From: an uncultured Acetobacteraceae bacterium
GTDB taxonomy: Bacteria; Pseudomonadota; Alphaproteobacteria; Acetobacterales; Acetobacteraceae
DNA length: 64,000 nt
Assembly: GCA_937873205.1 (NCBI GenBank)
Contig: CALMVO010000089.1
Location: forward strand, 1 to 64,000
Direction: 5' to 3'
Below, in pieces: positions 39,852-54,103 of this stretch. Positions within the stretch are counted from its first letter, which is position 1; each line of letters begins with the position of its first letter. The position numbers were made by a program, and so were the translations under genes. The notes beneath the pieces were generated by a model that ran no database searches, had not been told where the DNA came from, and worked only from the letters and a program-made list of their open reading frames with translations.

Positions 39852-40110
39852 CCGGCCTTGGCTCCCCGATCCGTGACCGCGAGACCCGAAATGGCTCTTC
39901 GATCGGGAGGCGGGCCGGTTGTCAGGCGCGTCTCGATCGCCGACTGTGAGTGCGGCGGCCGGCCGACCCGAAGACTGTAGTCGCGGCCGCGGCGCGAGCC
40001 GGGCTCGGGACGATCCGGTCCAGCGGCCTCGGCAGCGACGATCCGGAGGTCTCTCGTGTTCGCCACGACCATGGATCGACAGGCGAGCTCGCCGCGATCA
40101 ACGTCGTCAT

Positions 40111-40266
40111 CCTTCGGGGCGTCTGCCAAGCTCGAGCCCCCTGCTGTGACAGGCCGCCCAGCGCGCCATCGACGCCACTTGACGCCAGATCGGCAGGCTG
40201 CTCGACCGCCTCTCACACAGCGAATGCGGCAACTACCTCGTCAACTCAGGATACACTTCAGCGTAA
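40111..40266 (+). mobile_element. IS630-family transposase C-terminal remnant
   Basis: The translation, allowing one frameshift and two nonsense codons, reads SAKLE, then LL(stop)QAAQRAIDAT(stop)RQIGRLLDRL, then SHSECGNYLVNSGYTSA and a TAA. This matches the end of IS630 transposases, where VFAKLK, an R-rich linker, W-R-x-IG and a final ECANY...AGY occur. The two stops replace an expected Arg and Trp. No terminal repeats or upstream catalytic DDE segment could be read. The rest of 39852-40617 has no gene I can assign. Confidence 0.55.
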
Positions 40267-40617
40267 AGTCATCATACGCTCGTTCCGATTGGTGCGCCGG
40301 AAGACGCTGCCAGGACGATATCCGGCAATAATTTGCAGCAGGTCGATGCACCGGGCGATACACGTCAGACCCTTACGCTGTGGCGAAGAAACGATCTTAA
40401 GATCATCCGTCGAACGGTGGTGTCTAAACGGCTGTCGCAGAATTGAGGAGGTGCGGACACACGGTAGTCACCCGTTGTGACCGGATTGCAGTCGAGTCGG
40501 TCTCTGTCGCGCCGCAAATATTTGGGGAACGTACGTAGCTGCTCACTGGGTCCGAGACGATACCGATAAGCGGCTCAGATTCAGCCAACGTTGACACAGG
40601 AACTTCAAATCAAAGCT

Positions 40618-41571
40618 TCAGGCTGCAGGTCGATGATCCCTAAAATGAACAGCATCGGCATGAGTATTGACGTCAAGAACCTGGCAAACATTGATCAGTT
40701 CCTTGACGAAGTCCCTGACCAAATCGCTTTGAACTTGCTCGGATCGCAGGATCAGTTGCATCCAGTAATCCGTCGGCGCATCAAGTTCGACCAGTCTGAA
40801 CAACTTCAATCGATGCTCATTGAGGATCGAGAGGTCCGAGAATATTCCGCACGCATCCGAGTTGAGTACGATCTCCTTCGCTACATAGATCGAGTTCGAA
40901 ATGATAATTTTCCTTGTCAAGTTTAAACCAATCGTCGAGAAGATTTGGCTCAAGCCGAACAGCTCGCCGAGCTCATCCTGCGGGCATACGAACGGATAAA
41001 CCGAAATATCACCGAGTTTGAAATCTCCGGTCAGAGGGTGCCCGGCCCGTAGGCAGAGGACACGCCTAACCCGGCACAAGGATATGGTCCGCATGCCCTT
41101 CAGATCGATCTCGCGAGGCCGCTGACAGACCAGCATATCGACGGTCCGGTCTTGCAACTGCGTCAGGAGCGACTTGATCGTAGGCTCCTCAGAGATCCGT
41201 GTGTCGATTCCGGCGACGAAGGGCTGAAGCCGACAGATCGTCAACGCCGTGAGCGAGGCGGCCGCACCCACAGTCACGCCGACCCTGAGCGTACCCTTCT
41301 TTCCACTCGTAAGCTCCCTGATATCTTGTGCAGCCTTAATCAGTTCGCGATCGACTGATCTCGCATGCTCGTAGAGTATCCGTCCATAGATTGTTGGTTC
41401 GATGCCGTGGGGCGTGCGGTCGATGAGCTTCACCCCGACCTCCCGCTCTATCTGGCCAATGCTCTGAGACAGGGCGGGCTGAGTTATTCCAAGGTGGCTG
41501 GCGGCTTGCTTGAAGCTGCCATGCTGGATAAGGACCGCGAGCCTGATGAGACGTTGTGGGTCAACTCTCAT
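40618..41571 (-). CDS. LysR-family regulator
   Basis: The 317-residue protein has an N-terminal LysR helix-turn-helix (FKQAASHLGITQPALSQSIGQIEREVG) and an effector domain with LRVGVTVGAAASLTA, RTVDMLVCQRP and a central VCPQDELGELFGL. Codon use is more AT-tolerant than the polyol cluster (many ATT, TCA and AAG codons), which suggests acquisition. It is 87 bases from the amidohydrolase on the same strand, as a downstream gene. Its likely targets are the amidohydrolase and the Rieske cluster. Confidence 0.88.
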   Translation of the reverse strand: MRVDPQRLIRLAVLIQHGSFKQAASHLGITQPALSQSIGQIEREVGVKLIDRTPHGIEPTIYGRILYEHARSVDRELIKAAQDIRELTSGKKGTLRVGVTVGAAASLTALTICRLQPFVAGIDTRISEEPTIKSLLTQLQDRTVDMLVCQRPREIDLKGMRTISLCRVRRVLCLRAGHPLTGDFKLGDISVYPFVCPQDELGELFGLSQIFSTIGLNLTRKIIISNSIYVAKEIVLNSDACGIFSDLSILNEHRLKLFRLVELDAPTDYWMQLILRSEQVQSDLVRDFVKELINVCQVLDVNTHADAVHFRDHRPAA

Positions 41572-41658
41572 GACGATCGCACAGCGGCACCTATGCCGCG
41601 ATGGTTCTGCATCGGCCTAGACGCATAGACCATGATCGTCGGGCCGCGTCGCAAACTC

Positions 41659-42594
41659 CTAGCGGCTCAGGCTGTGAAGGAGTGCCGAGGCATTGTCACG
41701 ACCGATCGCCACATGCTCGACCTCTGACAGAAGCGGGCTCGCATCGAGCGCCGAAGTGAAGGCCTCTGCCATCCCTCCAGGTACGTAGGGGAAGTCGGTT
41801 CCAAGCAGGATACGCGACGGATCGGCAAAATTCATGAGGCTTGGCAGAGTAGACGGGCTCGACGAAAGCGCGGTGTCAAAATAGAATCGACGAAAAAACA
41901 TGAGAATCTTGTCGGCATCATACAAGTCAGGTTTATAACCTGCGGCGCAGGTCGCGAAACGATTCGCAGCGTAAGGCAGGAACCCGCCAGCGTGCGCCAG
42001 AATCACCTGCAAGTTCCGATAACGGTCGAGCACGCCCTTCAGCACCATGTCGACGGCCGTTCGAGTCGTATCGGACGGAAAATCGACCAACGGCGGCGGG
42101 ATACCGTCGAGCGGGGCCAGCGCGTTTCGAGTGGGGTGGATGAAGACGACCGCATTTCGTCGATCCAGATCCGACCAGAGCGGCTCGAACAATGGATCGC
42201 CCAGGTAGCGGCCGCCGTAGTTGGACATCAGGACCACACCATCACTCCGAAGCACATCGAGGGCATAGGCGACTTCGCGCAGCGCGCCATCCACGTCAGG
42301 CAATGGGAGGGTGGCAAAGTTACCGAAATTCTTAGGCCATTTCGCGACCACCTCCGCAGTATAGTCGTTGACCTGACGAGCAATGTCGCGATGCTCATTC
42401 TCCTGCCAGTCGGCGATGCCGGGTGCCGTCAGCGAGAGGATGCCGCGGTTGATCCGACGTGCTTCCATGAACCGAAGTGCAGTATCCGGCGACCAAGCCG
42501 GTGGCCGATGGGCCGATCCCCGTTTCTGCAGGCCATCCACCCACAGGGGAGGCAGCACGTGCTGATGGACATCGATCCTATTGTTTACTACCAC
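41659..42594 (-). CDS. Amidohydrolase 2-family metal-dependent hydrolase/decarboxylase
   Basis: The 311-residue TIM-barrel protein has the family metal ligands: DVHQH at the N-terminus, HPT around residue 155, LAHAGGFLPY near residue 200 and GTDFPY near residue 270. The group includes ACMSD-type decarboxylases and 5-carboxyvanillate or resorcylate decarboxylases, which act on carboxylated aromatic or muconate products. Beside a Rieske oxygenase system this suggests a role in breakdown of a ring or ring-cleavage product. The start is a GTG with GAGG seven bases upstream. It is divergent from the M24-fold gene. Confidence 0.85.
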   Translation of the reverse strand: MVVNNRIDVHQHVLPPLWVDGLQKRGSAHRPPAWSPDTALRFMEARRINRGILSLTAPGIADWQENEHRDIARQVNDYTAEVVAKWPKNFGNFATLPLPDVDGALREVAYALDVLRSDGVVLMSNYGGRYLGDPLFEPLWSDLDRRNAVVFIHPTRNALAPLDGIPPPLVDFPSDTTRTAVDMVLKGVLDRYRNLQVILAHAGGFLPYAANRFATCAAGYKPDLYDADKILMFFRRFYFDTALSSSPSTLPSLMNFADPSRILLGTDFPYVPGGMAEAFTSALDASPLLSEVEHVAIGRDNASALLHSLSR

Positions 42595-42773
42595 TTCTGC
42601 ACCTCGTCGGCCAGCCGGTCACGAACCATCTTATAGACCCGATCTGGTGGCACGGATAGCGGCGCTGCGATGCCGCTCAATATTCGAGCCAAGCGGCTGC
42701 ATCGGAAAGAACCGTCGAAGCCAGAGCGCGTTCTATCCGTAGAGCGCGACCCGATGATCGGAAGGCTGGATCG

Positions 42774-43889
42774 ATGTTCGACGTTGCCGAAGCGACAGCC
42801 CGATGGACGCGGGTGCGCGAGATGATGGAACGCCACGATCTCGACTTGGTCCTCGCGATCGACCTGTCGCGCGACGAGATCCTGCAGGGCCATCAACGAT
42901 GGCTGACCGGATACATTGCAATGGGCGGTCCAGCGGCGACATTGCTGCACCGCAACGGCCATATCGAGCTGATCTCGGAACGCATCGGCAAGCCGGTGAC
43001 TCGGCACTACCAGACCAACGCCTTTCCGATCGAGCTGGTGAACGGCTTCACGCCGGCACTGCTTGCCGAGCGCATCGGCCGGCTGCGCCCCAGGCGGCTT
43101 GGTATCGCCGGGGCCGATAGTTTCCCGGCCTCTCTGGCCGGATTGCTCGGCGAGCAGCCGTTTCCCCCTGAACTTGTCGATGCGAGCTTGCAGTTCCAAC
43201 GTCTGCGCCTGCGCAAGAGTGCCTACGAGCTGGCCCTCATCCGGAGGAGCTGCGCCATCGCCGACGCGGTTTGGGAGCAGGTTCCCGACATCGTGCGCAT
43301 TGGCCGGAAGAACTACGAGGTCGTTGCCGATATCGATCACCACGTCCGTCTGCAGGGCGCCGAGGCCGGTTTCCACCTGGTTCTGCCGCTGCCCTTCGCC
43401 GGCCGGCCGATGCGGTCAGTTGCCAATCCCGCGACGATCGAGCCCGACACACGCTACCTGGTCGAGATCTCGCCCCGCTGCGATGGCTACTACGCGCAGC
43501 TTACGCTCCCCGTGACCAGTCGCGCTGACGATCAGGTGGCACTGGACGCCTATCAGGATCTGGTAGATGCAAAGCAGGCGGCGCTGCCACTCATGCGACC
43601 GGGTGCTGATCTATCTCAGGTGGCACGATCCGTGTCGACCTTCCTGGCCGACCGGGGTCATACCATGACCTCGCTATCCCTCGGCCATTTCTGCGGAATG
43701 GCGCTCGAGGAGCCACGTCACGACCCGTCTGTCCCATTCAAGCTCGAGGATGGCATGACCCTCATCTTCCATCCGATCTTGGCCGAGCCCGAGTTCCAGT
43801 CCTTGATGCGCGCCGACACCTATCTGATCACTGAGTCTGGCGCCGAGAGGCTGACCCGATATGATGGCGGCATGCTCACGCTGGTCTGA
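42774..43889 (+). CDS. M24-fold (creatinase/Xaa-Pro peptidase-like) hydrolase with altered metal site
   Basis: The 371-residue protein has the creatinase N-domain (residues 1-145) and the pita-bread C-domain (LRKSAYELALIRRSCAIADAVWE onward). Metal ligands of M24 peptidases are mostly replaced. The positions expected to be Asp, Asp, His, Glu, Glu read Glu231, Gln242, His305, His333 and Glu354. Loss of two acidic ligands argues against a dinuclear metal peptidase. It suggests a metal-free or single-metal enzyme, as in creatinase, which cleaves a C-N bond without metal. Ectoine hydrolases are also relatives. Its place between the amidohydrolase and the Rieske cluster suggests catabolic amide or C-N hydrolysis; the substrate is unknown. 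Confidence 0.75.
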   Translation: MFDVAEATARWTRVREMMERHDLDLVLAIDLSRDEILQGHQRWLTGYIAMGGPAATLLHRNGHIELISERIGKPVTRHYQTNAFPIELVNGFTPALLAERIGRLRPRRLGIAGADSFPASLAGLLGEQPFPPELVDASLQFQRLRLRKSAYELALIRRSCAIADAVWEQVPDIVRIGRKNYEVVADIDHHVRLQGAEAGFHLVLPLPFAGRPMRSVANPATIEPDTRYLVEISPRCDGYYAQLTLPVTSRADDQVALDAYQDLVDAKQAALPLMRPGADLSQVARSVSTFLADRGHTMTSLSLGHFCGMALEEPRHDPSVPFKLEDGMTLIFHPILAEPEFQSLMRADTYLITESGAERLTRYDGGMLTLV

Positions 43890-43922
43890 TGCCAGCCGGT
43901 CTTGAGGTCGACCCAACAAGGT

Positions 43923-44003
43923 CAGGCTCTGCCCTAGACCCGCTCAAGACGGAGCCTTGAGAATCCTCTTGTTGAGCGGGTCAATAGGTGGAGCCTAGGC
44001 TCG
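43923..44003. repeat. Twin-hairpin repeat family 2, copy B
   Basis: GACCCGCTCAA and TTGAGCGGGTC form a perfect 11-base inverted repeat. It encloses GGAGCCTTGAG sequence and is flanked by outer arms GGCTC...GAGCC. The GCTCTGCCCTAGACCCGCT block matches the copies at 17481 and 54243. It lies between the convergent ends of the M24-fold gene and the FAD reductase, where it can act as a two-way terminator. Confidence 0.65.
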
Positions 44004-44015
44004 CTCGACCTGCGG

Positions 44016-45314
44016 TCAAACATGATACGACGACGGTGCGTTCTTCATTTCCTTGAGCGGGATGGTCGTGTCCGCAAGCATCGAGCGGTCAGCAATGATC
44101 CTTTCCGTCACGAGCCGCTTGCCCTGAACGAAATCCCGGGTCGCGTTGACGCAGTCGAGCGCAACCACCTTCCTGCCCTTGAGATAGACGATGGAGAAGC
44201 TGCGTTCCGCAGGGCGCCCGCGCACGACCAGGTCGTCATAACCGATCGACAGGCCGATGGTCTGAAGCTTCAGGTCGTACTGGTTCGACCAGAACCACGG
44301 CATGGAGTCATAGACGGCCGATGTCCCCGTCAGCACCTTGGCGACGACTGCCGCCTGGTCCGTGGCATTCTGCACCGACTCGAGCCGGATCATCGCGTCA
44401 TCCGCGTAGGCGCTGACATGGAGCGCGCAGTCCCCGATCGCGAAGATGTCGGGCAGGCTGGTGTGACACCGGGCATCGACCTCGACGCCATTACCGCCCC
44501 TCGCGCCAGCGACAAGAAGCGGCTCGACCGCGGGCACGATGCCGATCCCGACGACCGCTATGTCGCATGCCAGGACCTCGCCGCCCACGAGCCGCACGCC
44601 GCAGACCCGGCCTGACCTCTCCTCAAGGCACTCGACCGCCACGCCCAGGCGGATGTCGACGCCGTGCGCACGGTGCTCGGCCTCGTAGAACCTCGACAGC
44701 GGCTCTCCGGCGACCCGGGCCAGCACCCGGTCGAGCGCCTCCAGCACGGTGACGTGCTTCCCGGCCTTGGCCAGCACCGCCGCTGCCTCCAGCCCGATGT
44801 AGCCGCCGCCGATGACCACGGCGCGAGTCGTCGACGCAAGCTCGGCCCGCATCCGGTCAGCATCGGCCCGGGTCCGCACGGTGTGCACGCCGACGAGGTC
44901 GTGGCCGGAGCAGACCAGCCGACGCGGCGATCCGCCCGTTGCCCAGATCAGGTGGGCATAGCCGATCACCGTGCCGTCCGCGCACGATACCCGATGCTCG
45001 TGAGGTTCGACCTTCGTCACGCGCCGACCAAGCAGCATCGCCACCTCGGATTTGGCCCAGAAAGCCGGGGGATGGATCAGCAGTCGATCGAGCGGCTTGT
45101 CTCCGGACAGATATTCCTTGGACAGCGGCGGTCGCTCGTAGGGGAAGTCGGGTTCGTCTCCCAGCAAGGCGATCGAGCCCGTGAACTTCGCTTTCCGGAG
45201 TGCTGCGGCGGCCTGCGCACCGCCATGTCCGGCCCCGACGATCAGGATGTCATACTGTTCCATCATCTCGTCGGACGATCGAACATCCAGAAACGGGCGA
45301 GCCAACGACGACAT
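44016..45314 (-). CDS. FAD-dependent ferredoxin reductase of a Rieske oxygenase system
   Basis: The 432-residue flavoprotein has an FAD-binding Rossmann motif (ILIVGAGHGGAQAAAALR), PYERPPLSKEYL, an NAD-binding motif VVIGGGYIGLEAAAVLAKAG and the FAD-closing DIFAIGDCA. This is the putidaredoxin/rhodocoxin reductase class (FNR_like with a C-terminal reductase domain). It takes electrons from NADH and passes them to a 2Fe-2S ferredoxin, encoded six bases upstream. A GGAGGA site lies 10 bases before the ATG. It is the last gene of the operon reading from the Rieske oxygenase. Confidence 0.9.
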   Translation of the reverse strand: MSSLARPFLDVRSSDEMMEQYDILIVGAGHGGAQAAAALRKAKFTGSIALLGDEPDFPYERPPLSKEYLSGDKPLDRLLIHPPAFWAKSEVAMLLGRRVTKVEPHEHRVSCADGTVIGYAHLIWATGGSPRRLVCSGHDLVGVHTVRTRADADRMRAELASTTRAVVIGGGYIGLEAAAVLAKAGKHVTVLEALDRVLARVAGEPLSRFYEAEHRAHGVDIRLGVAVECLEERSGRVCGVRLVGGEVLACDIAVVGIGIVPAVEPLLVAGARGGNGVEVDARCHTSLPDIFAIGDCALHVSAYADDAMIRLESVQNATDQAAVVAKVLTGTSAVYDSMPWFWSNQYDLKLQTIGLSIGYDDLVVRGRPAERSFSIVYLKGRKVVALDCVNATRDFVQGKRLVTERIIADRSMLADTTIPLKEMKNAPSSYHV

Positions 45315-45320
45315 GATCGC

Positions 45321-45635
45321 TCAGTCCTCCGGCGCGATCGTCACGCCCAGCCCGTCGAGAGCCGGCGTGAACGGGATCTGGCAAGACAGACGCGAGCTCG
45401 GTCGACGGTGGAGCGAGCTGTCGAGCAGCTCGTTCTCGTCGCCGCTCATTGTCGGCAGGCGGCTGGCGAATGCTTCTCCGACATAGACGTGGCAGGTCGC
45501 GCACGAGCAGCCGCCACCGCACAGCGCGAGCAACTCGTCGGTGCTCTCGCGGATCGCCTCCATCACCGAGAGGCCGCCTCCGGCGTCGATCTGCCTCTGC
45601 CCGCCCTCGCGCATGGTTACGACAAGTCTTGGCAT
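45321..45635 (-). CDS. 2Fe-2S ferredoxin, adrenodoxin/putidaredoxin type
   Basis: The 104-residue protein has the plant/adrenodoxin-type cluster ligands in [14 protein letters not shown] (Cys-x5-Cys-x2-Cys) and a fourth Cys in RLSCQI near residue 84. The acidic [10 protein letters not shown] helix is typical of the partner-docking surface. It shuttles electrons between the FAD reductase encoded downstream and an oxygenase, here most likely the Rieske protein at 49783. The ATG at 45635 begins [12 protein letters not shown]. The long open frame upstream of it is non-coding. Confidence 0.9.
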
Positions 45636-45652
45636 GATGTCCTTCCTCGCCT

Positions 45653-45910
45653 TCAAGTGTCCGTTGATGCACCCAGTCTGCGCCGGGATGCGATTGACCG
45701 CCCGCTCCTCCACTCGAGGATCGAGCACCAGATGCGAATAGCGCCCGCACCACCTGAAGCCATCAGCAAGTCCAGCTCGTCGCTCGTGCGAGCTGTGCGC
45801 AGGCCGTATCCGAGCGCGTCTGCACGCCCTCTCGGGCGTGCCCGTCTCCCGTCCGGGATGCCTTTGAAGGCAGCGATGCCGTTCGAGATAAATTCGATAG
45901 CAGGCTTCAC
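45653..45910 (-). CDS. Possible small protein, unknown
   Basis: An 85-residue frame starting at GTG lies between the MFS transporter and the ferredoxin. It fits on both sides and is on the operon strand. The first half ([18 protein letters not shown]) looks protein-like. The second half ([21 protein letters not shown]) is basic. No ribosome site or family is visible. It could be a remnant of a larger gene, and nothing else occupies 45636-45967. Confidence 0.25.
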
Positions 45911-45967
45911 ACCATGTTACGGGACCGCTCCCCGATCGGACAGGCACGTCGCACCGTATCCGGCGGA

Positions 45968-47338
45968 TCAGGTCTGCTTCTCGACCAGCGCGAAACCCCT
46001 CCGCTGCGTTGCCGGGACCGCGTCGAACCGCGGGATGTGACGATCGACGATGAGGAGGCCAGCGATGACGACCGTGGTTAGGGCTGCGGTCAGCGCGAAG
46101 AACCCGCCCGCGTGGGCAATCGCGAGCGCGGCGGCGCCGGCAAAGCTGCTCAGGATCGTTCCCACGCGACCTACCAGGGAGGCCGCGCCAATGCCTCTCG
46201 ACCGGACGTTCGTCTCGTAGGCGTTCGCTGCCAGGACGTAGAGAGAGGCCTGCAGTCCGCCGGTGCACAGGCCCTGCAGTGACAGGCCGATGAAGATTGC
46301 CGGCAACAGACCGCTGCCGGGATGTATGGCGAAAGCGACCATGCTGAGCCCGATCGCGATGATCAGCGAGCAGGTCGACAGGAACACCATGACGGGACGG
46401 GAACCCAGTCGGACCAGCAACCAGCCGGTGGCGAGCGTGCCGAAAATCGCCGAGAAGCTGAACACCATCGGACCGCGCAGCGCCGTCGTCAGGGGAAGGT
46501 TGAGCCCGACCAGAATGACGGTCAGCCAGCCGGCGATCGCATAGGTCGCCAGGCTGTTGCCCAAGACGGCGAGCCACAAGCCGGTGTTGACCCGGGCGTT
46601 GCCTCTCGTCAGCAACCGCTCTCCGCCTTCCTGCTTCTGTTCGAGATAGAAGGCCTCCCGGCTATCGCCGATCGGTCCGCGCCACGCCCTTGCCAGGAGC
46701 GCGTGGGTCTCGCGCTGACGTCCGTGGAGGATCAGGTAGCTCGGGGATTCCGGGAGTTTCCAGAGCAGCACGGCCGTAAAGACCAGGCAGACGATGCTCG
46801 CGGTGGCAAAGCAGCCACGCCAGCCGAAATGGGGTAGAAGCCAGGACGCTGCCATCGCGCCGCCGATAGCGCCGATCGGAAAGCCGAGCGTCATGATGCT
46901 GATGGCCTTGCCGGTCGCGCGGCGGGGCATCCACTCGCTCATCAGCGCCGTCGCCACCGGAAAGGCGGCGCCGAAGCCGCAGCCGCTCAGGAACCGCCAC
47001 AACATGAATGTTCGGGGGCCGCTGGCGCCGGCACAGACCAGTGTCATGACGCCGAACGAAAGCACGCTTGCGATCAGCGTCGGCCTACGTCCGTAACGGT
47101 CGCTCAACCAGCTGCCGGTCAAGGCGCCGACCGCCATGCCAATCATCGCGGCTGCCAGCAGAGGTGAGAGCCCAGGTTTCGTCAGATGCCACTGCCGCAT
47201 CAACAACGGCGCAGAATAGGATGCGAGTTGCAGGTCCAGTCCGTCGAGAATGATGACGCATGTCAGCATGCTGGCCACGGCCCACTGGAGCCGTGCGATC
47301 GGCGCGGCGTTCATCGTCTCTCTGAAGCTGATCGGCAT
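45968..47338 (-). CDS. MFS transporter, aromatic acid:H+ symporter type
   Basis: The 456-residue protein has twelve likely helices. Between helices 2 and 3 is the MFS loop motif [14 protein letters not shown], and the first helix has an acidic pair in [17 protein letters not shown]. The DGxD motif in helix 1 and length match the AAHS group (PcaK, BenK), which import aromatic acids with protons. Its place in a cluster with a Rieske oxygenase suggests uptake of the oxygenase substrate. An AGGGGAGG ribosome site precedes the ATG. The central loop (around residues 200-240) is long and charged, as usual. Confidence 0.85.
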
Positions 47339-47540
47339 GATTTCCTCCCCTCGGTTCTTTACAGAACAAACCGTTTGCTTTTGTTTTTTGGCCTACGAAT
47401 GCTCAACGCATCCGGACAGGAATGTCTTGTTCAACGGATGATCCAGGAGTCGTTTTTGCTGGTTGTCCGCCCGCTCCGCTCGCGGATCGATATGACAATG
47501 GCTGCAATCCAGAGGATCCTTCCGAACTCAGTCGGTGGCG

Positions 47541-49631
47541 TCATCCTCCAGGCGGGCGCGGTGTTTCGTCATCGAGCAGATTCCAGTGCCGGAGGATGAG
47601 CGAGATCTTCTGCAGCAAGGCCTCGGCATTGCCAACGTCCTGCGCCAGCCGCTGCTGCTGGTTCAAGGTGACCGGCGGCGGCTCGCCCGAGACTAGGCAG
47701 GCGCTGATCGAGATCCGCAATATGCCAACCTCTCGACCGGCCAGCGACAATCCGATCGGCGATCCCATTTGGAAGCGCCTGCGTGCCAGGGCGAGATCGG
47801 GAGGCGCCGCCACCGTCGGCAGGTGAGCGCCGAGATCGGCAGCGAGCCAGATGCAGACGCGTGCCACAGCGTCCGGCGACAGCCAGCCGGGTCCCGTCGG
47901 ATCTTGCAGGGCAAAGCCGAGGATGGTCCCGATCTCGTCCCAGCCGGCCCCGTGCCATGTCATCCCGTTCCAGCCCACGTCATCCGACGCCATGGCGATC
48001 CTGGGGACGACACGGCGTGGCGCGGGCGAGTCGACTAGGGTGAGGTCGGCATTGCCGAGGATGGCCGAGCGGACGCTCGAGACGAAGCGGTCGATGACCT
48101 GCCGCTGCTCCTCGGCTGGCATGGCGTTGAACGCGCGTAACTCGGCGAGCGCCGCGGCCCATCGGAGCGCCAGCCCGACGTCGCTGCCGGGTGGCAGGCC
48201 CTGCACCGCAGCCAGGCCCGGCGGCCATTCGGCGCGACCCGAATAATCGCGCAATCCGCTCGGAACCGCACGACCGAACCTGTCGCGCAGGGTCTCCGGG
48301 ACGAGCACCGCGCCCGAGGATGAAGGGCCGGCCAGGAACCTGGAGCCGGTGAGGATCACGATCCAGTTGAGCGACAGGTATTCGAGGATGCGATCGGGCG
48401 ACAACCGCGCCTGCGAGGCGTCCACGACGACGTCCACTTGGTCGGGATGGCGCTCCTGAAGCCTGTTCAGGGTGGGGATGTCGGGGGCGAGCAGGCCGGT
48501 CTCCGAGGTATCGACCCGGTGCAGGACCACCCGCCGTCCGGCCGCCACCGCGGCGTCCGCAACGCGCTCGCACTCGGACGCGATGTCGTCCGACGCGCGC
48601 ACCACACCGTCGACGGTGCGCAACGCGATGCTCTGCACCTGCGTGTCGTCACGGAAGCCGTCGATGAGGGTGGACATCCCCACCGCCGCACCCCGCGCGG
48701 TGTCCTCGGCGACGTGTCGGCCCGCGGCGGCAACCGGCACGAGGCTCCCAGTCCCTCCGTCGGCCATCAGCACCATCGTCAGCGGCCGGGGCGTCGGATG
48801 ATTCTGGGCTGCGGCAAGGACGAACAGCTCGCACTCGACCTCCGAGGGTGCCAGCGCGACGAAAGTTCCAGGCGGCAGCCCGTAGGCCGTCCTGATCACA
48901 CCGCGAATGGTCGCGAACGCGTTGCCGACGGCCCGGGCATCGGTGGGGATGTTGGCGAGGATGGCGCGCCGCATCGCCTCCGCGCCGCGATGGCCGCGTT
49001 CCGAGGTGACGGACACCGTCGCCGATGCCGACGTGACGGCGCGGCGGCGCGGGCGATGGCCGTCATCGTCTCGGTTCACGCCGCTTCGGCTGACGGGCAG
49101 GCGGCGGTCGCCATCGCCCTGCATGAGCCAACTGGTCGGACCCAGTAGGGGCCAGGCGCGGGCGAGCAGCCTGCCGACGTCGAACGGAAGCTCGTCGGGC
49201 GCCCCGGGCTGGTGCCGGGCCAGCAGCGACCAGAGCGCCGCCGCCGCCTGGAGGCCGATCGGCGCGTCCGACGTCAACGCGGCATCGTCCGGCATGCCGT
49301 CCATCCCGCCAGTCACCAAGTTTCGGGCGTCCGGCCGTTCGAGCCTCGCGAACAGGGCGGCGGTTCGTGCGGCGGAGAGACCGGCGAGCGCAGGCCTATC
49401 GGGCCAAAGGCTGCGCAGCATCAGCAGCTCGATCGCATGGCGGAGCACGACCGCCTGAGACTGCGTCGTCGAGGCGCTGACGGGACTGAGCAGGATCTCG
49501 CCGTCGCCGGTCAGCGCGAACGAGCACGGCAGGTCGGCCAGGACGCGAACGCTCACCCCGACCGACAGATCGCGGAAGTCGGCACGGGACAGCGTCCGCA
49601 AGACCTGATCCGGGAACTCGATCACAGTCAT
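47541..49631 (-). CDS. Large fold-type-I PLP-enzyme-like protein lacking the Schiff-base lysine
   Basis: The 696-residue protein has an N-terminal Ala/Leu-rich helical region (residues 1-200) and a charged linker. A region resembling class-V aminotransferases runs from about residue 220 to 560. The cofactor-pocket counterpart is VDVVVDASQARLS (Asp and Gln that contact PLP), followed by VILTGSRFLAGPSSSGAVLV. Relatives I recall have TGSKFF at this site. Here residue 431 is Arg where Lys would bind PLP. The C-terminal ~130 residues form an unusual extra domain (WNGMTWHGAGWDEIG). The ATG at 49631 follows GGAGG. It lies 151 bases after the Rieske gene. It may bind a nucleotide or cofactor non-catalytically, or use Arg; function is unknown. 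Confidence 0.6.
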   Translation of the reverse strand: MTVIEFPDQVLRTLSRADFRDLSVGVSVRVLADLPCSFALTGDGEILLSPVSASTTQSQAVVLRHAIELLMLRSLWPDRPALAGLSAARTAALFARLERPDARNLVTGGMDGMPDDAALTSDAPIGLQAAAALWSLLARHQPGAPDELPFDVGRLLARAWPLLGPTSWLMQGDGDRRLPVSRSGVNRDDDGHRPRRRAVTSASATVSVTSERGHRGAEAMRRAILANIPTDARAVGNAFATIRGVIRTAYGLPPGTFVALAPSEVECELFVLAAAQNHPTPRPLTMVLMADGGTGSLVPVAAAGRHVAEDTARGAAVGMSTLIDGFRDDTQVQSIALRTVDGVVRASDDIASECERVADAAVAAGRRVVLHRVDTSETGLLAPDIPTLNRLQERHPDQVDVVVDASQARLSPDRILEYLSLNWIVILTGSRFLAGPSSSGAVLVPETLRDRFGRAVPSGLRDYSGRAEWPPGLAAVQGLPPGSDVGLALRWAAALAELRAFNAMPAEEQRQVIDRFVSSVRSAILGNADLTLVDSPAPRRVVPRIAMASDDVGWNGMTWHGAGWDEIGTILGFALQDPTGPGWLSPDAVARVCIWLAADLGAHLPTVAAPPDLALARRRFQMGSPIGLSLAGREVGILRISISACLVSGEPPPVTLNQQQRLAQDVGNAEALLQKISLILRHWNLLDDETPRPPGG

Positions 49632-49782
49632 TACGCCTCCTCTAGCCTGGTCGGCGTCGGCCGTCGGACGGACGCCAATTCCTGGCTCCACCACGACAGG
49701 GGGCTTGGTGTCTCGCACCCGACCGCCCCAGGCCGTCTCCCGATCCGGTTCCGAAGGGCTGCACGGACGTTCCCGATCGCCT

Positions 49783-50925
49783 CTATTCGGCCGCGACAGC
49801 GGCCTCCGAGGTCACGAGCTTGCCTTCGCCGCTACGCCGCCACTCCTTCAGCGGCTGCCCCTCCTGCAAGGCGTTCATCTCGCGCGCCCAGATCCTGCGC
49901 AGCAGTCCGATCGCGCGATCCGAGGCACCGAGATGCTCGCTCTTGCGATCGGCGATGATTCCCTGGCCGGCCATGCACACCGTGTCCTGGATCACCGGCA
50001 GCAAGGGATGGTTCTGGTCGACGTCGTCCAGGCTCATCTCGCCAGCCATGATTCGAGCCGAGAGTTCGTTCGGGTCAGTCATCTCCTTGAGCTTCTGATG
50101 CATGGTTGGGTCGGGCTTCGCCACGCGGTCGATCATCACGCTGAGCGTGCTGGTATCGTCGATCGGCACGCGCCAGGCCGCATGGATGGTCAGATTGTCG
50201 CGATCCTGCTGAATGACGACATCCCGGAGCATGATGTTGGGCATGAAGGCATGCGTGAACAGCTTGCTGCCATCGGCACGGGCGGCAATGCTGACCAGAC
50301 CGTATTCGGTCTCCCTGGCGGTGATGCGGGGTATGTCAACAAGGCCGAAGCTTCCGGCGAATTCGCCGTGCGTGTAGTGGATATGTACCTCGTCGACATC
50401 GTTTTCGATGCGCTGGAAGTAGTTGTAGGGGAGGACGACCGCCAGGGTGAGCAACTCGCCCGCACTCTCATCCTCAAGCTCTGGGAAACGCAGGAACGCG
50501 GGAGCCTCGCCCTCGCCGAAAAAGCCGAAGATGACACCGAGGTACTCCTGAACCGGATACACCTTCAGGCACATGCTACGGGCGTAGCTCTGCGTTTCTG
50601 CCGGGAACTCCTCGCCCCGGCCGTCGCCCGAGAACTTCCAGCCGTGATAGCGGCAGCGGATCGAGTTCCCTTCGACCCAACCATAGGCCAGACTCGTCCC
50701 GCGATGCGGGCAGCGATCCTGAACGAGGTTGATCTGACCGTCCTGGCCGCGATACAGCGTGTAGAAGTTCCCGAGCATCTTGATCCGCTTGGCGGTCCCC
50801 GGCTTATGCTCTCTCGACAGGCCGATCGGCTGCCAGAACTGCGCCAGATACCTGCCGGCGATCGCACCGTTCTCCACGAGCGAGAAATCATCGAATGAAT
50901 GTCGGCCCTGCAGTGCTGCAGACAT
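49783..50925 (-). CDS. Rieske oxygenase, terminal (alpha) component
   Basis: The 380-residue protein has a Rieske 2Fe-2S centre: Cys72-Pro-His74 and Cys91-Arg-Tyr-His94, spacing normal for ring-hydroxylating oxygenases. A catalytic domain follows with NDVDEVHIHYTH, which holds the two-His facial-triad ligands and a bridging Asp. It has the phthalate-dioxygenase/vanillate-demethylase layout without a beta subunit. It would oxidise an aromatic or N-methyl/O-methyl compound using electrons from the ferredoxin at 45321 and the reductase at 44016. First gene of the minus-strand operon. The reaction type (hydroxylation or demethylation) is unknown. Confidence 0.9.
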   Translation of the reverse strand: MSAALQGRHSFDDFSLVENGAIAGRYLAQFWQPIGLSREHKPGTAKRIKMLGNFYTLYRGQDGQINLVQDRCPHRGTSLAYGWVEGNSIRCRYHGWKFSGDGRGEEFPAETQSYARSMCLKVYPVQEYLGVIFGFFGEGEAPAFLRFPELEDESAGELLTLAVVLPYNYFQRIENDVDEVHIHYTHGEFAGSFGLVDIPRITARETEYGLVSIAARADGSKLFTHAFMPNIMLRDVVIQQDRDNLTIHAAWRVPIDDTSTLSVMIDRVAKPDPTMHQKLKEMTDPNELSARIMAGEMSLDDVDQNHPLLPVIQDTVCMAGQGIIADRKSEHLGASDRAIGLLRRIWAREMNALQEGQPLKEWRRSGEGKLVTSEAAVAAE

Positions 50926-51656
50926 CTCTACGTCCTCCGGAACGTGTCGTTACGCCCTGTCGGCGCTGATGTTGAAGTTGATTACGGAACTTGACCATCC
51001 TGTCGCACCATTCGGGGCAGGAAGCGGCCACCTGTAGGAAGTTGTTCTCCACATAACCCTACGACACGCGCGCGACAGCAAGCTGATCATCTTAGACCGG
51101 TGCGGCAACGCCTGTTTGATGAGGATACATCCTTTGGATGATCCCAAATCAGTGTTAGGTGGCGCTCGCGCATCTTGAGTAGCTAGTTCCTTATCAAGTC
51201 CCTGTCGATTTGACTGCAGGACGATTGACCGATCATCGACATCCGGCAGCCTATCCAATCCCTAAGATCAACCTAGGACCGGCCACATCTGCTGGCAAAT
51301 TAGAACTTCTTATCGATCATAAGTCTTTCTAATGAGGATGGAATTGCCATCTAGTTCGTTGACAAGAATGATTGAGCGACGCTCTTCTACAAGTCGACGT
51401 GAGCGAATTCTCATCGGTCATCACGTGACATCGCTTCGACGGACAGGAGGCCACACAGCAAGATCGATCCGGCCGCAAGTTCCCCCGTTGCTCACCCAGC
51501 CCCCCCTGGCGGCCCCATGGGATGTAAGCGCTGCAACGGAGGACAACGCACGATCTCGACCAGGAGGGCTCGTTGCCGGACGAATTCGAACATACCACGA
51601 GCAGATGTGCATGAAAGCGAGGTGGCGCGAGACCATCCGCTTCGGGAGAGAACGAG
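50926..51656. other. Intergenic region between Rieske operon and porin
   Basis: About 730 bases lie between two divergent genes. The sequence is more AT-rich than the genome average seen here and has no frame with family resemblance. It must contain the operon promoter (leftward) and the porin promoter (rightward), but no boxes could be assigned with confidence. Confidence 0.45.
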
Positions 51657-53231
51657 ATGCGTCCCTATATTCAAAGCGTGTTGGCTGCCGTCATAATCGA
51701 CGCAGCCTTGGCCATGGCCGCGCAGGCCGCCGACCCATCGTCCGCAACCGACCCGTTCATGTCGGCGCTCAACGCGGACGCTACCCTACCATCCGATGGT
51801 TCCATGGCCAGTATCGACATCGCCAGCGGCGGATCCCCACTGGCTACGCAGCCAGGTTCCAGCTTGAGTAGCGTGAGCAACGGGAGCGCATCAGGCGTTT
51901 CCACTAATCCCAGCAACAACACGACGGGAGCCTACACCCTCCCCGGGATCCCGTTGCCCAACTCTCCGCCTCCGCGGATCGGCCTGTTTACGGGCCTTGG
52001 CAAGACGCTCCTCGATAGTGGTATCGACTTTCACGGTGTCGCATTTGATCACTTCCTGACAAACCCGACAGCCGGAGTCGTTCCCGGTCAAATTGACAAC
52101 CTTGCCGTTCTTGGCCTGGAGGCCGATCTTGATCTCAACAAGCTTGTCAGCATCCGGGGCGGCAACGTGCATGTCCAGTTCACGCTGTTCGGCCTCAAGG
52201 ACGACATCCCCCAGTTCATCACCGAATCCGGCGGCTTCCTGACCGGAACCCAGAGCACGCCGGCCGAGCCGAGCAACGCCCTGTCCGTCCTGACCTACGA
52301 GCAGAAATTAATCGACGACCGGCTGTCGATCGAGATCGGCAGGACGAACGTGTATCATTACTTCTTTCTTCCGAACTCCCTCGACCCTTTCACGTATTTC
52401 TCGAGCACGGTCAACGTCGATGGGGACTTCTCGACCAATCCTTGGCCGAACTGGGCGGGTCGCGCGACATATCACTGGACGCCGGAATGGTATGCGCAGG
52501 TTGGAGCGTTTGAAGACAACTTCATCCGTTCGACCAGTAATCCCGACAATTTCGGCATTACGGACAATACTGGATTCCAGACCTTAGGCGAAGTCGGCTA
52601 CCGCAGTGAATTCAACAATGCGGCCTATCCGGCCAATCTCGAGCTGGGCGCACTATGGGATGACCGGACCAGTCCAACCAATCTGAAGGGAACGGCCGCG
52701 TTTTACAACGGACGTAACTCGCCAGTGCAGTACGGCAGCGCGGGCGTACTATATTTTCAAGGACTGAAAACCTTGTGGCGTGGCGCAAGCCGGCACCTGG
52801 GACCGCCAGCCAACGTCGCCGTCTATGGTTCCGTCGACGTCGCTGTAGACAAGCCGCAACCGGTCGACATGGACGCCCTGGCTGGTATCACCTTCACGGG
52901 CTTCATCCCACGACGCCCATTCGACGCACTGGAGTTCCAGGCACACTATCAACGCCTGAGCCAGGTCGAAGCAAACTACGAGACACTTCTCCACAACATC
53001 TTCGCAGGCCGTGGTCCCTCTCAATCTCGCGATGGCTATACCTTCGAGGTTAATGGAAACATCCAGTTGACACCTTGGTTCGCGTTGCGGCCCATCGTCG
53101 AGCAGTTCACCAACCCGGACAACCTCTTTGATCCCGCCCAGAAGAGGCGGTCGTCCGATGGTTTTATGACCGCCATCTTCGCGACCATCTCGCTCGGAAA
53201 GCTTCTCGGTACAAGTGACAAGCCGTTCTAA
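51657..53231 (+). CDS. OprB-like porin
   Basis: The 524-residue protein has a signal peptide (to about residue 25, AQA) and a Ser/Thr/Asn-rich low-complexity segment to about residue 100. A beta-barrel follows with blocks shared with the porin at 30841: LSVLTYEQKLIDDRLSIEIGR, NWAGRATYHWTPEWYAQVGAF and FALRPIVEQFTNPDNLFDP. It probably lets an organic substrate through the outer membrane. It is divergent from the Rieske operon, so it may feed that pathway. A GAGAACGAG ribosome-like site precedes the ATG. The AT-richer codon use resembles the LysR at 40618. Confidence 0.85.
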   Translation: MRPYIQSVLAAVIIDAALAMAAQAADPSSATDPFMSALNADATLPSDGSMASIDIASGGSPLATQPGSSLSSVSNGSASGVSTNPSNNTTGAYTLPGIPLPNSPPPRIGLFTGLGKTLLDSGIDFHGVAFDHFLTNPTAGVVPGQIDNLAVLGLEADLDLNKLVSIRGGNVHVQFTLFGLKDDIPQFITESGGFLTGTQSTPAEPSNALSVLTYEQKLIDDRLSIEIGRTNVYHYFFLPNSLDPFTYFSSTVNVDGDFSTNPWPNWAGRATYHWTPEWYAQVGAFEDNFIRSTSNPDNFGITDNTGFQTLGEVGYRSEFNNAAYPANLELGALWDDRTSPTNLKGTAAFYNGRNSPVQYGSAGVLYFQGLKTLWRGASRHLGPPANVAVYGSVDVAVDKPQPVDMDALAGITFTGFIPRRPFDALEFQAHYQRLSQVEANYETLLHNIFAGRGPSQSRDGYTFEVNGNIQLTPWFALRPIVEQFTNPDNLFDPAQKRRSSDGFMTAIFATISLGKLLGTSDKPF

Positions 53232-53461
53232 TTCGAATACCGCAGAGGTGCTGGATCTCGCCTCTGCGGTCTCGGCGGGCGACGGGCCTGTGGTGGCGGT
53301 CGAGCTAGTCGTGTGGACAGACGGTGCCATATCCACTAGGGGCCGATAGATCGCCACTCCGTCGGTCGTTACCGGATCTCCACGATTACGACCGGGCCGG
53401 CTTCCGACGCCGGGCGCGGAGCCTCTCGTCTAGTGGCCGCCAATAAGCCGGAGATGCGATA

Positions 53462-54103
53462 CTAGGTGATGAAGCGATGCAGCGTCGACTGCATGACGGT
53501 CCGGCTCGCCTCCGCGGGGATCGGTGCCAGAAAATTCCCCTGTGGATCCAGGAGATAAATCACGGCACTGTGGTCGAGATCATCCCGTCCGCCGGCCAGA
53601 TCGGGCTCCACGACGACATGGAAGAGCCGTTCGACGGCCTCGAGTTGCTGGGGGGTTCCGGTCAGACCGACGAGGTGCGTCGAGAAGCCCATGATGTAGT
53701 GTCGCAGCCGGTCCGGCGTGTCGCGTGCGGGATCGATCGTGATGAAGACGGGCTGGACACGCTTGGCGTTAGGATCGAATCGGCCCAGGGCTTCAGACAT
53801 CTCCGTCAGGGTCCGTGGGCACACGTCGGCGCAGTTGGTGTAGCCGAAGAACAGCAGCACGTAGCGGCCACGGAAGCTGGTGTCGCTGCGGGGCCGCCCC
53901 TCGCTATCGGCAAGCGTAAAGGGTCCGCCGATGGCGGCCGCGGGCCCGGGTCCAAGCACCTGGCGGTAGAGGCCGGCACATGCCAGCAACCCGAGCACCC
54001 CGGCGGTTGCGATGGCGAAGCCCTTGCGCTCAGGACGCACGGTCGCCTCCGGCCGCCGCCTGCCGTGACGTCGCGTCGGACGCCTGCCCTCGTTCCTGCC
54101 CAT
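53462..54103 (-). CDS. SCO1/SenC-family copper chaperone-like protein
   Basis: The 213-residue protein has a basic N-terminus and one membrane helix (about residues 38-55). A thioredoxin-fold SCO domain follows with the copper-binding FGYTNCADVCPRTL (Cys-x3-Cys) and the distal His in LDHSAVIYLLD. SCO proteins deliver copper to cytochrome c oxidase or help in redox protection. The start is the ATG at 54103; the longer frame begins at TTG. It is divergent from a copper-resistance set (CopC/CopD). The 230 bases between it and the porin gene hold nothing I recognise. Confidence 0.9.
   Translation of the reverse strand: MGRNEGRRPTRRHGRRRPEATVRPERKGFAIATAGVLGLLACAGLYRQVLGPGPAAAIGGPFTLADSEGRPRSDTSFRGRYVLLFFGYTNCADVCPRTLTEMSEALGRFDPNAKRVQPVFITIDPARDTPDRLRHYIMGFSTHLVGLTGTPQQLEAVERLFHVVVEPDLAGGRDDLDHSAVIYLLDPQGNFLAPIPAEASRTVMQSTLHRFIT

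Follow-up and report, generated by a model that had tools for sequence, protein, structure and literature searches.

The P0001 locus and its Rieske-type surroundings

In this work, we analyzed P0001, a gene on the minus strand of the window (the whole stretch of 64,000 nucleotides). Its reading frame is intact, with 696 codons running from an ATG at 49631 to a stop codon ending at 47541, and a Shine-Dalgarno-like sequence stands shortly 5' of this ATG; a GTG at 49718 is a possible alternative start but has no such site. The genes and features of the region are the following:

47541..49631 (stop included), minus strand: P0001, predicted fold-type-I paralogue without the cofactor lysine, 696 residues, start ATG at 49631
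49636..49641, minus strand: AGGAGG, Shine-Dalgarno-like sequence of P0001
49783..50925, minus strand: Rieske oxygenase, alpha-type, 380 residues, upstream neighbour of P0001 (PF00355, E 3.5e-20)
45968..47338, minus strand: MFS transporter, aromatic acid/H+ symporter-like (TIGR00895, E 1.4e-77, below the curated cut-off)
45321..45635, minus strand: 2Fe-2S ferredoxin (TIGR02007, E 3e-12, below the curated cut-off)
44016..45314, minus strand: ferredoxin reductase, AndAa/HcaD-like
41659..42594, minus strand: Amidohydrolase_2 family protein
40618..41571, minus strand: LysR-type regulator

The nearest solved relative of the Rieske protein is annotated as a putative phthalate 4,5-dioxygenase. An earlier note on this DNA had placed P0001 inside a Rieske oxygenase operon. 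The gene does form a same-strand run with the genes for the Rieske protein, the MFS transporter, the ferredoxin and the reductase, but the gaps that flank it measure 151 and 202 bp and a single transcript is only putative. The GC content drops to 0.57-0.66 between 40 and 48 kb and to 0.59-0.60 between 50 and 54 kb, versus about 0.70 around, and the relatives of the Rieske gene in other genomes of the genus are only about 27-34% identical. Its best homologues among 385 genomes of the class reach 42-43% identity (genomes G859 and G695), and neither of these two genomes has a match to the P0001 family. Judged from composition and homologues, the Rieske region looks like an acquired catabolic island. 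The low-GC stretch (40001-54000) also holds an M24 peptidase and an OprB porin and, judged by the Rieske gene, has no counterpart in the four remaining genomes of the genus. P0001 itself has a GC content of 0.70, above that of its island neighbours, and a GC3 of 0.85, versus 0.65-0.83 in those neighbours and 0.92 in the lysine-bearing copy of the host described below. No report of a PLP pseudoenzyme within a Rieske cluster emerged from literature searches.

An orphan family with a predicted fold-type-I architecture

P0001 matched no family in Pfam or NCBIfam up to E 10 and nothing in PADLOC; its single match among PDB sequences (E 1.8) is attributable to chance, the family profile had no match in the PDB, and the relatives gave only weak matches in Pfam and NCBIfam, none of them convincing. 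A first scan of genome contigs with P0001 alone as query returned no relative, and none was found in viral contigs. The whole-genome search detected relatives in 123 of 397 Acetobacteraceae genomes, usually one per genome, with named members in Gluconobacter, Acetobacter, Komagataeibacter, Asaia, Gluconacetobacter, Acidisoma and others. Full-length relatives are mostly 35-44% identical to P0001, with E values down to 1e-124 over about 690 aligned residues; at up to 43-44% identity, the homology extends through the N-terminal part, the core and the C-terminal domain. We regard this as an uncharacterised orphan family, widespread in Acetobacteraceae, whose members are predicted PLP enzymes. In two genomes of one genus the family gene is seemingly in two pieces, one of them with an in-frame TAG, possibly as a result of decay or of an assembly error:

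G350:C13:25838-27848, split family gene
G330:C29:14283-16294, split family gene

AlphaFold (AF2) models were built from family alignments and used to search PDB structures. The P0001 model has a mean pLDDT of 83, with low confidence around residues 179-206 and 547-560, and that of the lysine-bearing relative L002 a mean of 91 (Z 22). Both match fold-type-I PLP enzymes, most closely NifS, SufS, PhnW and alanine-glyoxylate aminotransferase (Z 20-22 and rmsd about 4 over approximately 350 residues); the comparison of P0001 with NifS gave VIA Z 20.4 over 347 residues, with an rmsd of 4.0. The fold-type-I core that the earlier note had proposed is thus predicted at Z values of about 20. The matched range of the model reaches residue 686 and, therefore, the C-terminal part of P0001 corresponds to an ordinary fold-type-I small domain; the models support the presence of both the large and the small domain. 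As the N-terminal part (approximately 170 residues) recurs in the long family members and is absent from short relatives, the two terminal regions, formerly taken for unusual domains, are normal for this family and fold.

With the class-V-like fold-type-I enzymes (NifS/IscS/SufS, PhnW, alanine-glyoxylate aminotransferase and the carbon-sulfoxide lyase 8IRK), P0001 shares the predicted fold (Z about 20), the TGS-x-F block and an Asp/Gln motif located 27 residues before the lysine position. It differs from them in its identity, mostly 10-14%, in having no Pfam match, in its approximately 170 extra N-terminal residues and in its missing lysine. Position 431 of P0001 follows a core strand, 27 residues past Asp404. 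In class-V enzymes the lysine likewise stands after a core strand, 27 residues past the aspartate.

The source genome keeps an intact lysine-bearing copy of the family gene (L013; G000:C8, 6504-8804), followed by a histidine phosphatase gene (C8:8896-9546) that shares 76% identity with its counterpart in a congener. This lysine copy and phosphatase unit spans L042:6504-9546, and the named loci are L070-L149. Of the 80 named loci, 76 have a match to this histidine phosphatase, which in the 30 loci listed is the gene immediately downstream; dTDP-rhamnose genes occur in the vicinity of 47 of the 80. No Rieske match was detected near the family genes at any of 98 long-type or named loci (0/80 for the named ones). 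The usual setting of the family is a two-gene unit and P0001 sits outside it: whereas most named members directly precede the histidine phosphatase, P0001 stands beside Rieske genes and is followed by the MFS gene.

Loss of the cofactor lysine and of other conserved residues

The Asp/Gln loop VVVDASQARLS (D404-A-S-Q407-A-R409) and the TGS-x-F block, in the form TGSRFLAGP (T428-G-S-R431-F), are both present in P0001, as the earlier note had read them. The main pocket positions are the following:

48339..48341, minus strand: R431 (AGG); in relatives an invariant Lys, the putative Schiff-base lysine
48501..48503, minus strand: E377; in 100 aligned relatives an invariant Lys (SKTG)
48834..48845, minus strand: S263-E-V-E266; in 100 aligned relatives S-G-T-D, the putative phosphate loop
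48753..48755, minus strand: G293; in relatives an invariant Glu (ETGSG)
48411..48422, minus strand: D404..Q407, Asp/Gln motif kept as DASQ (DACQ in relatives)

In the family alignment, all 100 distinct homologues have Lys at position 431, where P0001 has Arg, which bears out the reading of R431 as a replacement of the expected lysine. The same 100/100 count holds for Lys at position 377, where P0001 has Glu, and all 100 aligned relatives have SGTD at 263-266 together with Glu293, replaced in P0001 by SEVE and Gly293. Further pocket changes affect G297, C406, T434 and P437/F438, while D404, Q407, T378-G379 and S430 are kept. Asp404 is invariant in the family and, as suggested by the motif spacing, would pair with the pyridine nitrogen. 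Given these substitutions, the view that the protein lost the lysine and kept its pocket is not supported.

The losses are spread over all parts of the protein. P0001 has kept 88 and lost 32 of 120 near-invariant residues, and those lost outside the pocket motifs include W197R, R590A, N597A and R645C. In a smaller comparable set, P0001 keeps 73% of the conserved residues, versus 93-100% in other full members and 75-79% in the distant members L011 and L012. Of the 33 residues in the five pocket motifs 20 are kept, versus 68 of 87 elsewhere, a difference that is not significant (Fisher p = 0.066); this mild bias fits a general relaxation as well as it fits a tailored pseudoenzyme. The R431 codon, AGG, is one transition away from a lysine codon (AAG to AGG). 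A sequencing error might account for this one base but not for the many other losses, and was rejected as an explanation.

A second lineage without the lysine was found among the short members of the family (476-477 residues), with Thr at the lysine position, in three species of another genus:

L057:3153-4583, Thr-bearing member
L058:8925-10358, Thr-bearing member
L173:6076-7509, Thr-bearing member

Their motifs read GSTFLGGP, GDATG in place of SKTG and SPAD in place of SGTD. The dN/dS values among the three species are 0.19-0.29, which points to purifying selection, and, therefore, selection can keep a lysine-less form. As in the case of P0001, these members belong to the same family, have lost the lysine and coexist with a lysine copy in the same genomes; they differ from it in carrying Thr and not Arg, in having no N-terminal part, in being present in three species and in their neighbours, which are SSB/ParB-like genes. 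No Rieske genes were found near the Thr-bearing loci. The other short and rhizobial members that we read retain the lysine, and no other Arg was seen among the relatives read. Together with the 98 loci mentioned above, this speaks against an Arg clade tied to Rieske genes, a possibility that the earlier note had raised.

The only other Rieske neighbour of the family that we saw is a short lysine-bearing member in genome G224 (L164:6166-8715), located 82 bp upstream of a same-strand Rieske oxygenase gene. Distant lysine-bearing relatives are also present on Sinorhizobium and Rhizobium plasmids (L158:44-12666 and L159:7917-10921), in NRPS clusters with SagB and phosphopantetheinyl transferase genes or beside a gene for a diaminobutyrate-decarboxylase-like PLP decarboxylase, which suggests natural-product roles for these relatives.

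Origin, constraint and possible role of P0001

In the family tree, the branch of P0001 measures 2.0 substitutions per site and falls outside the group of the source genome's own copy. A recent duplication of this lysine copy was rejected by the AU test, both with L013 alone (p 9e-7) and with the whole genus group (p 0.007). An old divergence or an import appears to be the better reading, on a tree in which the long branch of P0001 limits inference. No orthologue was found in the sets searched, so P0001 stands as a singleton, probably a non-catalytic offshoot of the Acetobacteraceae family confined to one species. When a real family gene (the lysine copy) was decayed neutrally in silico until it had lost as many conserved sites as P0001, an open frame was kept in only 1 of 300 simulations (0.3%). 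An open frame is thus rare under neutral decay, and selection would therefore have acted for much of the history of P0001. This argues for past, though not necessarily present, constraint.

We favor the view, with a probability of roughly 0.6, that P0001 is a pseudoenzyme, a divergent paralogue without catalytic activity, retained as a non-catalytic protein in the Rieske island. Without the lysine the protein should form no internal aldimine with PLP and perform no PLP chemistry of its own, and it is very unlikely to catalyse a PLP reaction by way of a Schiff-base lysine. The lack of this residue together with the acidic residues in the putative phosphate loop favors a non-catalytic protein that keeps its fold and surfaces. 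P0001 would most likely act through its retained fold and dimer surface, either by binding a small ligand of the Rieske pathway or by pairing with another protein and modulating it; the lysine copy of the source genome (L013/L042) would be a candidate partner. The role of binding protein or regulator put forward in the earlier note is possible. The analogy is with eukaryotic serine palmitoyltransferase, whose non-catalytic, lysine-less subunit LCB1 forms a pair with LCB2 (PMC3794620). Like P0001, SPTLC1/LCB1 is a paralogue without the PLP lysine that has a lysine-bearing relative in the same cell (PMC3794620); unlike P0001, it belongs to a different fold-type-I subfamily and its partner is established, while that of P0001 is conjectural. 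In another PLP fold, a dead TSB-like paralogue activates its partner (PMC12727527).

Alternatively, P0001 could be a gene in early decay, imported or duplicated, that has no function in the Rieske island and is so far unbroken. Its singleton status on a very long branch, the loss of near-invariant residues in all parts of the protein, many of them outside the pocket motifs, and the lack of a significant concentration of these losses in the pocket are what such a gene would be expected to display. Its open frame of 696 codons, a GC3 near that of the island neighbours, a good ribosome-binding site and the rarity of a preserved frame in the neutral simulations go against it, and we consider early decay a somewhat unlikely explanation.

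A residual enzymatic activity appears improbable. Arg431 could bind a substrate carboxylate or phosphate, or PLP could be held non-covalently (as PMP), in a cofactor-free or aldimine-independent reaction of the Rieske pathway. The conservation of D404, Q407, T378-G379 and S430 and the adjoining aromatic-acid catabolic genes are compatible with this idea, and lysine-independent PMP chemistry is known in fold type I. ColD-type 3-dehydratases are fold-type-I enzymes of this kind and carry His. However, the change of SGTD to SEVE puts acidic side chains at the putative anion site, E293, K377 and F438 have been lost as well, and there is no Arg clade in which a site of this kind is kept; for the cofactor-free enzyme suggested in the earlier note we found no evidence. 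Finally, the use of another lysine by an active PLP enzyme is close to refuted: no support for it was found, the only lysine of P0001 is K675 and, therefore, no other pocket lysine can substitute, nor is K675, located in a C-terminal helix, a replacement, because it is family-invariant and also present in the Lys431-bearing relatives.

Returning to the pseudoenzyme, it is tempting to speculate that lysine-less paralogues arose at least twice (with Arg and with Thr), in genomes that also have a lysine copy, as non-catalytic partners or sensors, and that P0001 was recruited to sense or channel a substrate of a Rieske-type aromatic-acid pathway, although we regard this wider scenario as doubtful. 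For the Rieske cluster itself, the analysis of P0001 establishes no new role. For the family, it brings to light a conserved group without a Pfam or NCBIfam model, whose members are predicted PLP enzymes, occur in many acetic-acid bacteria and generally come together with a histidine phosphatase. The catalytic lysine disappeared at least two times in this group, which thus offers a small natural system for the passage from PLP enzyme to non-catalytic protein.
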